26,439 nt of DNA, taken from a virus. The position numbers and the translations under genes are program-made. The notes beneath the pieces are model-generated. The model was given only the letters and a program-made list of their open reading frames with translations. It was not told the origin of the DNA and ran no database searches. Location of the stretch: the IMG/VR virus record IMGVR_UViG_3300037847_002972, positions 1 to 26,439 of that record; one strand, written 5' to 3'. The stretch's first letter is position 1. Every line of letters begins with the position of its first letter. Below are positions 327 through 3,206 of the stretch, in pieces.

Positions 327-332
327 ATTATA
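327..332 (-). promoter_or_regulatory. -10 box (TATAAT) of the 59-301 gene
   Basis: A perfect TATAAT on the minus strand lies 25 nt before the ATG at 301. No convincing -35 lies 16-18 nt upstream. The leader between box and ATG is CAA-rich. A TGACAGGTGGGTGTGACC-like stretch, similar in flavour to the elements before other small genes here, sits just upstream. Confidence 0.6.
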
Positions 333-343
333 GCGGGTCAGGG

Positions 344-631
344 TCACACCCACCTGTCACCAGGGACAGTTCCCCAACCGTCACGCTGATAGCGGCGGCG
401 GTCATAGTCTTCCGCTGTGAAGTGATCGTCAAAGTCACCCTCATCAGTGGCACCCCTCACCATGTCCCCAAAGGTCACCCGCTCGTATGATGCAGCACGG
501 CGGCAGGTTGCTCGCTCTTGTCGTTCCTGCTCCATCACCTGCAGGGCGATGCTCTTAAGATAGGGGGAGCTGGCATAGATGCCGTCGCTGTCAAAGAGGG
601 ATTGTGCCATGGGGAAGTCGCTTGGTTTCAT
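344..631 (-). CDS. Hypothetical small acidic phage protein
   Basis: A 95-aa protein that I do not recognise. It is soluble and rich in D, R and Y, with a C-terminal EDYDRRRYQRDGWG segment. The ATG at 631 lies exactly 6 nt after a perfect TATAAT, so the mRNA is predicted to start at or next to the start codon. It is separated from its neighbours and probably monocistronic. Confidence 0.65.
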   Translation of the reverse strand: MKPSDFPMAQSLFDSDGIYASSPYLKSIALQVMEQERQERATCRRAASYERVTFGDMVRGATDEGDFDDHFTAEDYDRRRYQRDGWGTVPGDRWV

Positions 632-637
632 GTCTCT

Positions 638-643
638 ATTATA
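638..643 (-). promoter_or_regulatory. -10 box (TATAAT) placed for a leaderless mRNA
   Basis: TATAAT, six bases, then the ATG at 631. With the usual 6-7 nt from -10 to the transcription start, the first transcribed base would be the A of ATG. No -35 is visible. Confidence 0.6.
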
Positions 644-662
644 GGGGCTGAGGGGCAGAGGT

Positions 663-887
663 CTAGACGAGGTGGGACAGATGTTGATCCGTCACAGCAT
701 CAATGCTCTCGTCTTCATAGACCCTCACCCACTTGATAGGGTTGCCACTGGTCAGACGCCAAATCATCATGTCACCTTCCCCAATGGACGCTTGGCAGAT
801 CTTGTAAGCGTGGGCGATGTTGATGGCATACTCTGCACCGTGTGGATCAAAGTTTGCCCAGTTGGCGGGTTGAACGGCAAAGGTCAT
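663..887 (-). CDS. Hypothetical small phage protein
   Basis: A 74-aa protein of unknown function, with tryptophans in its N-terminal half (PANWANFDPHG) and a MMIWRLTSGNPIKWVRVYED segment that reads like paired beta strands. A TATAAT box lies 21 nt upstream of the ATG at 887. The leader is A-rich and lacks a Shine-Dalgarno. Confidence 0.65.
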   Translation of the reverse strand: MTFAVQPANWANFDPHGAEYAINIAHAYKICQASIGEGDMMIWRLTSGNPIKWVRVYEDESIDAVTDQHLSHLV

Positions 888-908
888 TTGGTTTTTTTCG
901 TTGCTCTT

Positions 909-914
909 ATTATA
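909..914 (-). promoter_or_regulatory. -10 box (TATAAT) of the 663-887 gene
   Basis: TATAAT in a TATATAATAAGAG context, 21 nt upstream of the ATG at 887. No -35 of good quality was found. GGTTGGGACAGAG at about 960-973 (minus strand) resembles the GTGGCACAG element seen before other genes. Confidence 0.55.
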
Positions 915-1025
915 TACCCAGCGACGCGGGCAATGCCAGCATAAGTGGACAGTCTGTGCTCTGTCCCAACCTTGGGCAGGTAGGGCATGGAATAGTGAGA
1001 CAATGGAAGACCCTCTGAATTGTGT

Positions 1026-1241
1026 TTAGTTTGCGTCAGGAATTAGATCAACCAATGTGTCTTCATCGTAGAGATTTACGATCTCTTCAGTTACTTCATC
1101 CCATGTCAACTTTTCGTATTCATCCATCAACAAATCATGTGCGATTTGTGCCAGACTGTCTACATCCATCCCATCAATAATGTGATTGACATAGTTCTCT
1201 TTGAGATGAAAAAGATCAAATTCGTTTGGAGATTGAGTCAT
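1026..1241 (-). CDS. Conserved hypothetical cyanophage-type small acidic protein
   Basis: A 71-aa, very acidic, predicted helical protein (MDVDSLAQIAHDLLMDEY, then EEIVNLYDEDTLVDLIPD). It resembles hypothetical proteins I recall from T4-like cyanophages, with no known function. The start is the ATG at 1241. The terminator of the preceding gene ends 24 bases upstream, so it either has its own weak promoter or depends on read-through. Confidence 0.7.
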   Translation of the reverse strand: MTQSPNEFDLFHLKENYVNHIIDGMDVDSLAQIAHDLLMDEYEKLTWDEVTEEIVNLYDEDTLVDLIPDAN

Positions 1242-1264
1242 GACAATTGTGTGGTGATGGTATT

Positions 1265-1288
1265 AAAAAGGGGGGAGATAATCCCCCT
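1265..1288 (-). terminator. Rho-independent terminator after the 1297-1623 gene
   Basis: Minus-strand stem GGGGGA/TCCCCC (plus 1282-1287 and 1271-1276), 5-nt loop, then C and TTTTT. It starts 9 bases past the stop of the 108-aa gene. The strong stem plus T tract makes this one of the clearest terminators in the window. Confidence 0.85.
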
Positions 1289-1296
1289 ATGTGTCA

Positions 1297-1623
1297 TCAG
1301 GCAAACTCAGCGAAAGTGTAACCGTTGACGAAATCATGCACCACTTTGTTATCACGAACGTACCATGCAAAATCCTTCTGAAAGACACCATCAGTGAATG
1401 CATTGCAGAACTCATTGATGATAGCATTGAGACGAGATTTGGTGGTGTTAGATTGCCAACCTCCATCAAATACACGGACGAAATCCTCACCGATCTCAGC
1501 AATTTTGTTATTGTGCAGATACACGGTGGACACACCTTCGTTGTTATCAACGCGGGTGTTACTCATGTGCCAGTCAGTGTTGTTCTTGATGGCAGTGTTC
1601 ATGAGCATTTCAATCTTACGCAT
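1297..1623 (-). CDS. Conserved cyanophage-type hypothetical protein
   Basis: A 108-aa protein starting MRKIEMLMNTAIKNNTDWHM, with VYLHNNKIAEIGEDFVRVFD, then GGWQSNTTKSRLNAIINEF. The pattern (basic N-terminus, N-S-x-V-x-L-H-x-N-x-I, G-G-W-x-S-x-T-T-K-S-R-L-N) is one I associate with a short cyanophage/podophage family without known function. It is monocistronic, with a TTGCAA-17-TATATT promoter at 1659-1687 and a terminator at 1265-1288. The leader of about 30 nt has no Shine-Dalgarno. Confidence 0.8.
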   Translation of the reverse strand: MRKIEMLMNTAIKNNTDWHMSNTRVDNNEGVSTVYLHNNKIAEIGEDFVRVFDGGWQSNTTKSRLNAIINEFCNAFTDGVFQKDFAWYVRDNKVVHDFVNGYTFAEFA

Positions 1624-1658
1624 GTGGTGAAAAATGGGTGAATTTGTTTGACTCTTTT

Positions 1659-1687
1659 AATATAGAGCACAGGGGGGAGAGTTGCAA
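1659..1687 (-). promoter_or_regulatory. Sigma70-like promoter TTGCAA-17-TATATT
   Basis: -35 TTGCAA at 1682-1687 and -10 TATATT at 1659-1664 with a 17-bp spacer. The -10 begins a conserved block TATATTAAAAGAGTCAAA that recurs at 7332-7349 and, with one change in the part that follows the box, near 8805-8822. The -35 sits inside a hairpin (1667-1699). Confidence 0.6.
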
Positions 1688-1699
1688 CCCACCCTGTGC
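1667..1699 (-). repeat. Inverted repeat with GCACAGGG arms overlapping a promoter
   Basis: Minus strand: GCACAGGGTGGG pairs with TCCCCCCTGTGC except for one mismatch, around a 9-nt loop. There is no T tract, so it is a weak terminator at best for the 1708-1890 gene. It contains the GTGGCACAG motif found near several other small-gene promoters. Confidence 0.6.
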
Positions 1700-1707
1700 C
1701 ACTTTGC

Positions 1708-1890
1708 TCACTGGTCAGCGAACATGCCGAAGTGGGCATCCAGCACGTAGTCTATCACCTCATCAGTGGCAGACACGTTGAACCGATCACAGAACCAATC
1801 AACACACATTTCAGCGGGCATCATGGTGTCAAACATGAAATCCTGCAGGTCCTGCAGGGTCTGGGGATTGGAGAGGAGTGTTTTGTTCAT
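1708..1890 (-). CDS. Hypothetical small phage protein
   Basis: A 60-aa acidic helical protein starting MNKTLLSNPQTLQDLQDFMF. Not recognised. The ATG at 1890 is 6 nt after a perfect TATAAT, as for the 344-631 gene, which predicts a leaderless mRNA. Its first 13 bases (ATGAACAAAACAC) are identical to those of the 1980-2159 gene upstream, hinting at a duplicated 5' end or shared translation signal. Confidence 0.65.
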   Translation of the reverse strand: MNKTLLSNPQTLQDLQDFMFDTMMPAEMCVDWFCDRFNVSATDEVIDYVLDAHFGMFADQ

Positions 1891-1896
1891 GCACCT

Positions 1897-1902
1897 ATTA
1901 TA
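1897..1902 (-). promoter_or_regulatory. -10 box (TATAAT) placed for a leaderless mRNA
   Basis: TATAAT-N6-ATG, the same geometry as at 638-643. No -35 is seen. A 41-nt hairpin (1928-1968) containing GTGGCACAG lies upstream. Confidence 0.6.
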
Positions 1903-1927: not shown

Positions 1928-1968
1928 GGTCACTGTGCCACCTTGCCAACTGGTTGGGGCGGCTGACC
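1928..1968 (-). repeat. Long imperfect hairpin with GTGGCACAG motif
   Basis: Minus-strand RNA could fold as GGTCA/TGACC, then GCCGCC/GGTGGC (one G-U), then CCAA/TTGG, with small internal loops. The wobble makes the fold better on the minus (transcribed) strand than on plus, favouring an RNA role. It lies between the 1980-2159 stop and the 1897 promoter. Confidence 0.55.
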
Positions 1969-1979
1969 AATTGTTTACA

Positions 1980-2159
1980 TCAACCCCCAAACATTTGATC
2001 AAATAGTTCTTGAGAATCACGCTCTAATTCTTCCCTGTGTTCTTGACACCAACGCTCATGATCTTCCATGCGTTTGATAGCAAGATGCTTAGGCAATCCT
2101 GTGTGCATGATGATCTTACCGTTTGGCAGTCTGTGTTGAAACATAGGTGTTTTGTTCAT
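1980..2159 (-). CDS. Hypothetical 59-aa phage protein
   Basis: A small gene read directly from ATG at 2159 to TGA at 1980-1982. The product starts MNKTPMFQHRLPNGKIIMHT and ends in a charged helical stretch (EEL ERD SQE LFD QMF GG). Function unknown. A TATTGT-N6-ATG arrangement precedes it, a weak version of the leaderless geometry seen for two neighbours. Confidence 0.65.
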   Translation of the reverse strand: MNKTPMFQHRLPNGKIIMHTGLPKHLAIKRMEDHERWCQEHREELERDSQELFDQMFGG

Positions 2160-2181
2160 GTGTATACAATACAGGATATGA

Positions 2182-2430
2182 TCAGCAATTCAACCCAGGT
2201 TGTGCCACTACGGGAACTGGACCATAGATATCGTTCATAAAATCACGTACCCTTTCACGGTCCAAACTATCACCATCACCCCATGACATTTCTATACATG
2301 GGTCATTGCAATCATCCAAATACATTAACACTGCATAAGCAATTTGTTCTTTGGTTCTGTTTTGATCATACAGACCATCTTTCCCATAGAAAGAATAAAC
2401 GTAGTCAATGAATTGTTGGAAGTTGTGCAT
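2182..2430 (-). CDS. Conserved small phage protein
   Basis: An 82-aa protein starting MHNFQQFIDYVYSFYGKDGL. I chose ATG 2430 because AGGA lies 6-9 nt upstream; the in-frame GTG at 2454 overlaps the predicted promoter. The sequence is acidic and aromatic, ending in VVAQPGLNC. No domain is recognised. Its 3' end supplies one GTGGCACA copy (about 2207-2214). Confidence 0.7.
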   Translation of the reverse strand: MHNFQQFIDYVYSFYGKDGLYDQNRTKEQIAYAVLMYLDDCNDPCIEMSWGDGDSLDRERVRDFMNDIYGPVPVVAQPGLNC

Positions 2431-2452
2431 AAAAAATCCTGAACATGTATAC

Positions 2453-2458
2453 ACTATA
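2453..2458 (-). promoter_or_regulatory. Candidate -10 box TATAGT of the 2182-2430 gene
   Basis: TATAGT in the partly palindromic sequence GTATAGTGTATAC. The predicted start lies near 2446, giving a 16-nt leader that contains the AGGA Shine-Dalgarno before ATG 2430. Confidence 0.45.
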
Positions 2459-2495
2459 CACGCTCAGGATGTGAATGGGAGGTTATATGGACAGT

Positions 2496-3044: not shown

Positions 3045-3050
3045 ATTATA
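3045..3050 (-). promoter_or_regulatory. -10 box (TATAAT) of the KTSC-like gene
   Basis: Perfect TATAAT, about 118 nt upstream of ATG 2927. A TGTGACAGTCCTCAAAGTGGC element lies 30 nt further upstream (about 3087-3107), a copy of the recurring pre-promoter motif. The rest of the gene-free stretch 2928-3305 holds a short hairpin (GCTAAG/CTTAGC, 3134-3163) and the repeats at 3207-3296. Confidence 0.5.
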
Positions 3051-3206
3051 AAGGGTCTTGGGGGTGATTCCGAGGGTCTGTGTGCCACTTTGAGGACTGT
3101 CACATGCTTCCTTGACTTTCGTGTGGTTGCGTGCTAAGCCAACGTCTCTGGAGTACCTTAGCAGTATCTTCAGAGCAGCCAGGGGGTATTTAATTAACCT
3201 TTTTTT

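Follow-up and report, generated by a model that had tools for sequence, protein, structure and literature searches.

Sigma-70-type promoters direct the start of RNA synthesis 7 bp after the -10 hexamer. The cI gene, which encodes the repressor of the temperate phage lambda, is a leaderless phage gene. PeSLs are defined by an early promoter joined to a stem-loop in the intergenic region of shuffled genes. The sigma-70 start spacing is consistent with Zheng et al. (2011; PMC3160421), who describe leaderless mRNAs of bacterial and archaeal genomes in which a TA-like signal precedes the start codon by about 10-12 bp, and who name phage lambda as the first leaderless case. Earlier work on T4-like phages (Arbiol, 2010; Comeau, 2014, both via PMC4503421) describes PeSLs as motifs composed of a promoter and a terminator. 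Within the virus group of the halovirus HF2, repeated intergenic elements serve many genes as promoters (PMC8707807).

Here, we analyse a window of 26,439 bases, an IMG/VR virus record taken at its full length, with an array of small minus-strand genes at 59-2454 that contains the sites studied. As for lambda cI, transcription of a phage gene from its AUG is predicted here from the sequence; unlike this repressor of a temperate phage, the genes concerned are small lytic-cyanophage genes without assigned function. Of the features that are generally taken to define a PeSL, the promoter and the shuffling seam are present, and the stem-loop is clear in some members only. The likeness to PeSLs lies in an intergenic promoter cassette among small shuffled genes, in some cases with a hairpin or terminator directly before the promoter. 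The difference, as far as the cited accounts of PeSLs go, is that the seam can fall inside the first codons, the promoter fixes the start codon and the upstream hairpin is weak overall. Our genes share with the leaderless mRNAs of Zheng et al. (2011) a -10 directly before the ATG, the lack of room for a Shine-Dalgarno site and the same computational criterion, but they are small genes of T4-like cyanophages, and their promoter type also feeds leadered genes. The likeness to HF2 is by description only; HF2 is an archaeal virus with archaeal promoter elements (PMC8707807). Leaderless genes are already known. By title and abstract, we found no published report of leaderless cyanophage genes, nor of small cyanophage genes in which a leaderless start is conserved together with a shuffled two-element promoter, although the Syn9 transcriptome and PeSL papers may already cover some of this; one leaderless-related paper (PMC5312081) concerns a Bacillus phage.

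The small-gene array

A sequence search with the first 6 kb of the window gave 163 records, all of Synechococcus/Prochlorococcus phages or cyanophages. The matches of the large genes at 13.5-26.4 kb (PHROG) were mostly to phage tail-fibre and structural families. The gene 1297-1623 matches the Pfam family Kyano_Gp96, which identifies the window as a T4-like cyanophage of the Kyanoviridae type. The Pfam search gave no match for the products of the 1890, 631 or 2159 genes, which are named here by the position of their start codon (Table 1). The 1890 product is predicted to be a small helical protein (AlphaFold model, mean pLDDT 88.9); comparison of this model with the PDB gave no match better than E = 4, and a function by fold was not obtained. 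Isolates with a homologue of the 1890 gene include S-CAM3, Sf-CH1b, Sf-CH11, S-CAM1 and Bellamy. In Sf-CH11 (L002, 4326-4886, plus strand), an opposite-strand ORF, SfCH11_69, is annotated over a homologue of the 1890 gene that is itself unannotated, and this annotation is probably an error.

Table 1. Features of the small-gene array, in window coordinates.
Feature	Position	Strand	Details
ORF of the 631 gene	344..631	(-)	95 aa, predicted leaderless start, MKPSDFPMAQ...; PHROG 10986, unknown function
-10 hexamer TATAAT, 631 gene	638..643	(-)	6 bp from ATG (629-631)
-35-like TAGACC, 631 gene		(-)	16-bp spacer to -10
Degenerate upstream box CTGTCCCA, 631 promoter	673..680	(-)	reads CTGGCACA in L062 and L063
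ORF of the 1890 gene	1708..1890	(-)	60 aa, predicted leaderless start, MNKTLLSNPQTLQDLQDFMF...; PHROG 10297, unknown function
-10 hexamer TATAAT, 1890 gene	1897..1902	(-)	6 bp from ATG (1888-1890)
Upstream box GTGGCACA, 1890 promoter	1934..1941	(-)	31 bp before -10
ORF of the 2159 gene	1980..2159	(-)	59 aa; ATG 2159 at N6; homologues start at residue 6 (ATG 2144-2142)
-10-like TATTGT, 2159 gene	2166..2171	(-)	6 bp from ATG 2159
Upstream box GTGGCACA, 2159 promoter	2201..2208	(-)	29 bp before TATTGT
Apparent recombination seam	2144..2159	(-)	L081/L106 homology ends, homology to other 2159-gene copies begins
Leadered comparison gene 1297-1623	-10 TATATT 1659..1664	(-)	box GTGGCACA 1695-1702; ATG 35 bp from -10
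Leadered comparison gene 59-301	-10 TATAAT 327..332	(-)	ATG 25 bp from -10
Leadered comparison gene 663-887	-10 TATAAT 909..914	(-)	ATG 21 bp from -10

A preliminary description of this DNA had pointed to two perfect TATAAT-N6-ATG arrangements and one weaker version. Direct reading and a pattern search recovered the two perfect sites on the minus strand, TATAAT AGAGAC ATG (643-629), which opens the ORF 344-631, and TATAAT AGGTGC ATG (1902-1888), which opens the ORF 1708-1890; the pattern search found no other in the window. Direct reading also bore out the weaker TATTGT ATACAC ATG (2171-2157, minus strand), which opens the ORF 1980-2159.

Two hairpins in the array deserve mention. A 16-pair hairpin with a following T5 (2436-2470, minus strand) encloses the -10-like TATAGT of the gene 2182-2454, so that a promoter and a terminator-like element overlap; the upstream regions of some 2159 homologues (L081, L082, L084) resemble this arrangement, around TATTGT. 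A strong terminator-like hairpin, GGGGGATTATCTCCCCC, with a T run lies at 1269-1288 (minus strand) between the genes 1297-1623 and 1026-1241. For the latter gene, no strong -10 was found upstream in a scan of the window.

Conservation of the six-base spacing

Homologous loci were fetched from viral contigs for the 1890 (n = 56), 631 (n = 19) and 2159 (n = 31) genes, and the stretch before the start could be lined up for 54/56, 16/19 and 30/31 of them, respectively, the rest being cut or matching in part. In all fetched loci, we measured how far the first in-frame ATG lies from a strong -10 word, defined as TATTGT or a word with five of the six letters. This distance was exactly 6 bp for 15 of the 15 words in the 631 family (17 distinct homologues) and for 34 of the 39 words in the 1890 family (57 homologues). 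The neighbouring families gave variable distances: 17-30 bp in family 301 (25/25), 21-30 bp in family 887 (25/26), 25-36 bp in family 1623 (38/38) and 21-33 bp in family 1241 (3/3). An invariant 6 bp against a variable 17-36 bp within one gene array is the strongest evidence, at the level of sequence comparison, for a start of transcription at the start codon.

For a closer look at the 1890 family, 63 distinct matches were reduced to 56 by dropping seven that lay near a contig end or missed the anchor. A -10-like word was kept at N6 in 51 of the 56, a count with a mild bias because seven rows had two candidate ATGs and the one with the better -10 was chosen. These words were TATAAT (25), TATTGT (13) and 13 weaker ones (CATCAT 4, AATCAT 3, CATACT 2, CATGCT 2, TAATGT 1, CATATT 1). 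Five homologues had no N6 word: L058 and L059 are clearly leadered, with a -10-like word 25-27 bp away, and L048, L050 and L089 have an ambiguous start arrangement. The AGG in the AGGTGC before the 1890 ATG is not conserved (relatives read GTACAC, GTCTAC or AGACAC), and the -35 of this promoter is only weak.

Between the ATG and a conserved LQ core lay 12 to 17 codons. The length of the N-terminus thus differs by up to 5 codons at a fixed N6, which implies that promoter and ATG move together. On a tree of the 1890 family, the minimum number of changes was 19 for the -10 class, 19 for the N-terminal length and 4 for the N6 status; with ~140 bases this tree is quick and rough, and hence only the contrast between 19 and 4 counts.

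Probable translation from the first ATG

If the promoters are real, the N6 ATG might still be part of a 5' leader, with translation beginning at the next in-frame ATG, i.e., at codon 8 or at MKPSDF in the 631 family and at residue 6 in the 2159 gene. We regard this as unlikely, and the 1890 family speaks against it. In most members of this family, the first 18 codons contain no ATG apart from the start. In the stretch LLSxPQTxQDLQDF behind the ATG (30 distinct versions), 3, 2 and 14 of the 14 columns were variable at codon positions 1, 2 and 3, respectively, and pairwise comparison of the codons gave 1902 synonymous versus 289 non-synonymous differences, counted over pairs that are not independent. 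Judged from these substitutions, the codons directly behind the 1890 ATG evolve as protein.

The 631 family offers evidence on both sides. The N6 ATG was in frame with the core, at 0, 15, 18 or 21 nt, in each of the 34 rows, of which several come from overlapping loci and six enter under both of two core motifs. The extensions hence come in multiples of three, which argues against a leader. Moreover, versions of the MNKI.FDSNGIYA type, such as MNKINFDSNGIYA, lack an alternative ATG nearby. On the other side, codon 8 of the 631 gene of the window is a second in-frame ATG, and an ATG stands at MKPSDF in several homologues, where a leadered start may thus be used. In S-CAM3, the 631-family relative MKFDSNGIYASS carries AAG instead of ATG at +1, with a distance of 21 bp, which speaks for a downstream start. 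Overall, the constraint on the 1890 codons and the in-frame N6 ATG of the 631 family favour, at the sequence level, the 5' AUG as the predicted translated start. We hold a leaderless mRNA to be very probable for both the 631 and the 1890 gene.

An apparent recombination seam at the 2159 gene

The 2159 gene speaks for a downstream start, since translation of its homologues would begin at residue 6. Among the 17 -10-like words found in 30 homologues, nine lay at 23 bp, and the sole word at 6 bp was that of the window itself. PHROG 2575 likewise aligns to the 2159 product from residue 6. Homology of the window to L081 and L106 covers the upstream gene, the promoter and ATGAACAAA (ATGAAC...), and then ends. 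With other copies of the 2159 gene, the homology mostly sets in 7-15 bases after the ORF start or further on (from query position 309-317 and beyond, with the ATG at 302), and L093 and L097 span the seam at a lower identity of about 76%. The 2159 promoter plus ATGAACAAAACAC matches the 1890-type promoter of L014 and L015 (34 bases, 91%), and its box at 2201..2208 (minus strand) lies within the 3' end of the upstream gene 2182-2454.

From these alignments, the 2159 start codon looks like a recombination seam, so its TATTGT-N6-ATG is real sequence that is not conserved. Transcription from the A of the ATG, as the preliminary description proposed for the two perfect sites, gains good support from the homologues of the 631 and 1890 genes, but a leaderless start as a conserved property of the 2159 gene is not supported by this comparison.

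A two-element cyanophage promoter

The promoters contain a second element that had escaped the preliminary description, GTGKCACA, 28-31 bp upstream of the -10. In the window, GTGGCACA precedes the -10 by 29-31 bp in the 1623, 1890 and 2159 promoters and in one at 3088. In all fetched sequences, the distance from box to TATAAT was 26-31 in 58 of the 60 pairs within 60 bp, and that from box to TATTGT was 28-32 in 45 of 47 pairs; no reverse complement of the box was found at that spacing. A search of 20 whole records for GTGGCACA-N27-32-TATWNT gave 41 matches (three in Syn9, none in T4) versus 0 for the reversed pattern; examples lie at 48574 and 51016 of NC_008296.2. The same two-element promoter was found in none of 17 picocyanobacterial loci and twice in all 80 cyanobacterial loci.

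Among 112 distinct two-element promoters, a set enriched for 631/1890-type genes, 46 had their first ATG at +1, 54 between +10 and +31 and one at +50; no ATG was found in 11, and none lay at +2 to +9. Loci not chosen for these genes, together with the window, gave 22 candidates with 8 at +1, two of which are the window's own. In the leadered cases, the predicted +1 was A or G in about 98-99%, which supports the assigned transcription start. The predicted leaderless starts have the form ATG A(A/C)(A/C) A.., with almost no G up to +12. The leaders are likewise A/C-rich, with a Shine-Dalgarno-like four-letter word in 7 of 54. For instance, the gene 59-301 has ATC, not ATG, at +1, followed by a CA-rich leader.

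A stem-loop before the box was considered as a general feature and rejected, since its signal was weak overall (mean z -0.70 against mononucleotide shuffles). The promoter GTGGCACA-N30-TATAAT at 3049-3088 (minus strand) has no ATG opening an ORF of at least 30 aa within 60 bp; an A/T-rich stretch of more than 100 nt follows, and then a likely ATG near 2928.

Alternatively, these could be T4-type late or MotA-type middle promoters rather than host-type ones. Their -10 words are TATA-like, and the relative S-CAM3 encodes, by annotation, a late sigma factor and a late promoter accessory protein. Yet, the cyanophage late motif is given as TATAAAT (PMC3037559), whereas our sites read TATAATA and TATTGTA, and a late promoter was rejected for this reason. 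A middle promoter was rejected too: the MotA box (TGCTTtA) is described as centred at -30, ~12 bp from the -10 (PMC2988021), whereas the box found here is GTGKCACA at 28-31 bp. Moreover, cyanomyoviruses are described as lacking motA, asiA and alt/mod, and their early genes are thought to use the unmodified host polymerase (PMC2984593). We therefore hold phage-type late or middle promoters to be very improbable.

Occurrence of the spacing in whole genomes

The raw number of N6 sites says little. Shuffled versions of the window contained on average 0.57 TATAAT-N6-ATG, and 10 of 100 shuffles had at least two, so the window count of two is by itself not significant. In 19 whole cyanophage records (T4 excluded; 14 of the 15 IMG/VR records picked for holding homologues), TATAAT preceded ATG by 6 bases 56 times, versus 42 times by 7, 33 times by 5 and 18 times for the reversed N6 pattern, so the genome-wide excess is only modest. 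The whole T4 genome had 8 perfect N6 sites versus 6 at N7 and 2 at N5, and its first 50 kb had no N6 site opening an ORF of at least 30 aa. A scan with a degenerate -10 (YAYHVT) showed no N6 peak, and hence the signal requires a strong -10 or an alignment of homologues. The significance of N6 thus lies in its conservation among homologues and not in its raw number. Chance, i.e., a TATAAT that twice happens to lie 12 bp before an ATG with transcription from further upstream, would fit these modest counts but is highly improbable, because the exact spacing is kept in two families despite a changing -10 word and N-terminus, and because loci fetched via the unrelated bait gene gp25 show a sharp peak, with 7 TATAAT at N6 (~3 gene families) versus 6 over the 18 other offsets in the range 0-18.

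We counted 105 distinct N6 ORFs with a minimum length of 40 aa and a strong -10. The largest clusters were the 1890 group (40) and the 631 group (37; by single linkage, probably several families). Smaller clusters share their signature of C at -1 and an A/C-rich start: the MNKTTYEITCPALGE type, MQNKHIEHPED (DUF6267), MELNRNSKRI and single cases. N6 ORFs with this signature span several unrelated protein families, and clusters without it look like chance. Before the ORF of the DUF6267 protein MQNKHIEHPED... (261 aa; L005, L007, L020), a GGGGG hairpin with T7 immediately precedes TATAAT-N6-ATG, so that terminator, promoter and start clearly form one composite.

Proposed transcription and translation of the 631 and 1890 genes

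The best explanation as a whole, which we consider probable, is that the 631 and 1890 genes are each transcribed from their own sigma-70-type promoter, most likely by the host RNA polymerase. The -10 would lie so that the A of the start codon, 7 bp after the hexamer, becomes the first base of the RNA. An RNA that starts at this A has no leader, and a Shine-Dalgarno site is then not possible on the 631 and 1890 mRNAs. Ribosomes would bind the 5'-terminal AUG, behind which lie A/C-rich, nearly G-free codons, typically ATG AAC AAA AC. The promoter would belong to a widespread two-element cyanophage type (GTGKCACA, 28-31 bp, -10) that appears to be shuffled among small genes, some leaderless and others expressed via a CA-rich leader of about 10-30 nt. 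Expression may be early, and the GTGKCACA box may bind a protein.

The suggestion that altered ribosomes in infected cells favour leaderless mRNAs found no support. In Prochlorococcus MED4, 6-8% of the primary start sites are given as lying within 10 nt of the start codon (PMC5607370), and hence the host group may already translate such mRNAs. Mimicry of a general host leaderless signal was rejected as an explanation: 80 cyanobacterial loci around psbA showed no N6 excess (8 at 6, with offsets 3-9 ranging from 2 to 9), and the two-element promoter is nearly absent from them.

A further, more speculative possibility, which we put forward only tentatively, is that promoter, start codon and a short A/C-rich N-terminal tag form a portable leaderless module with an activator-bound GTGKCACA. 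The tag (MNKT, MTNK, MKTK) would then travel with the promoter by recombination at the start codon and switch on any small ORF behind it; a change of a single base, from ATC to ATG at +1, would make a leadered gene leaderless; and GTGKCACA would be recognised by an activator of early cyanophage genes.

Implications for cyanophage small genes

Cyanophages carry many tiny genes of unknown function, for which little has been described in the way of expression signals. If a leaderless class with a defined two-element promoter is conserved among them, their true start codons could be found by rule, and it could be predicted which small ORFs are expressed. Leaderless translation in marine cyanobacteria could then be tested on a natural system. 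Such a class also suggests how a newly acquired ORF could gain expression by one recombination step.
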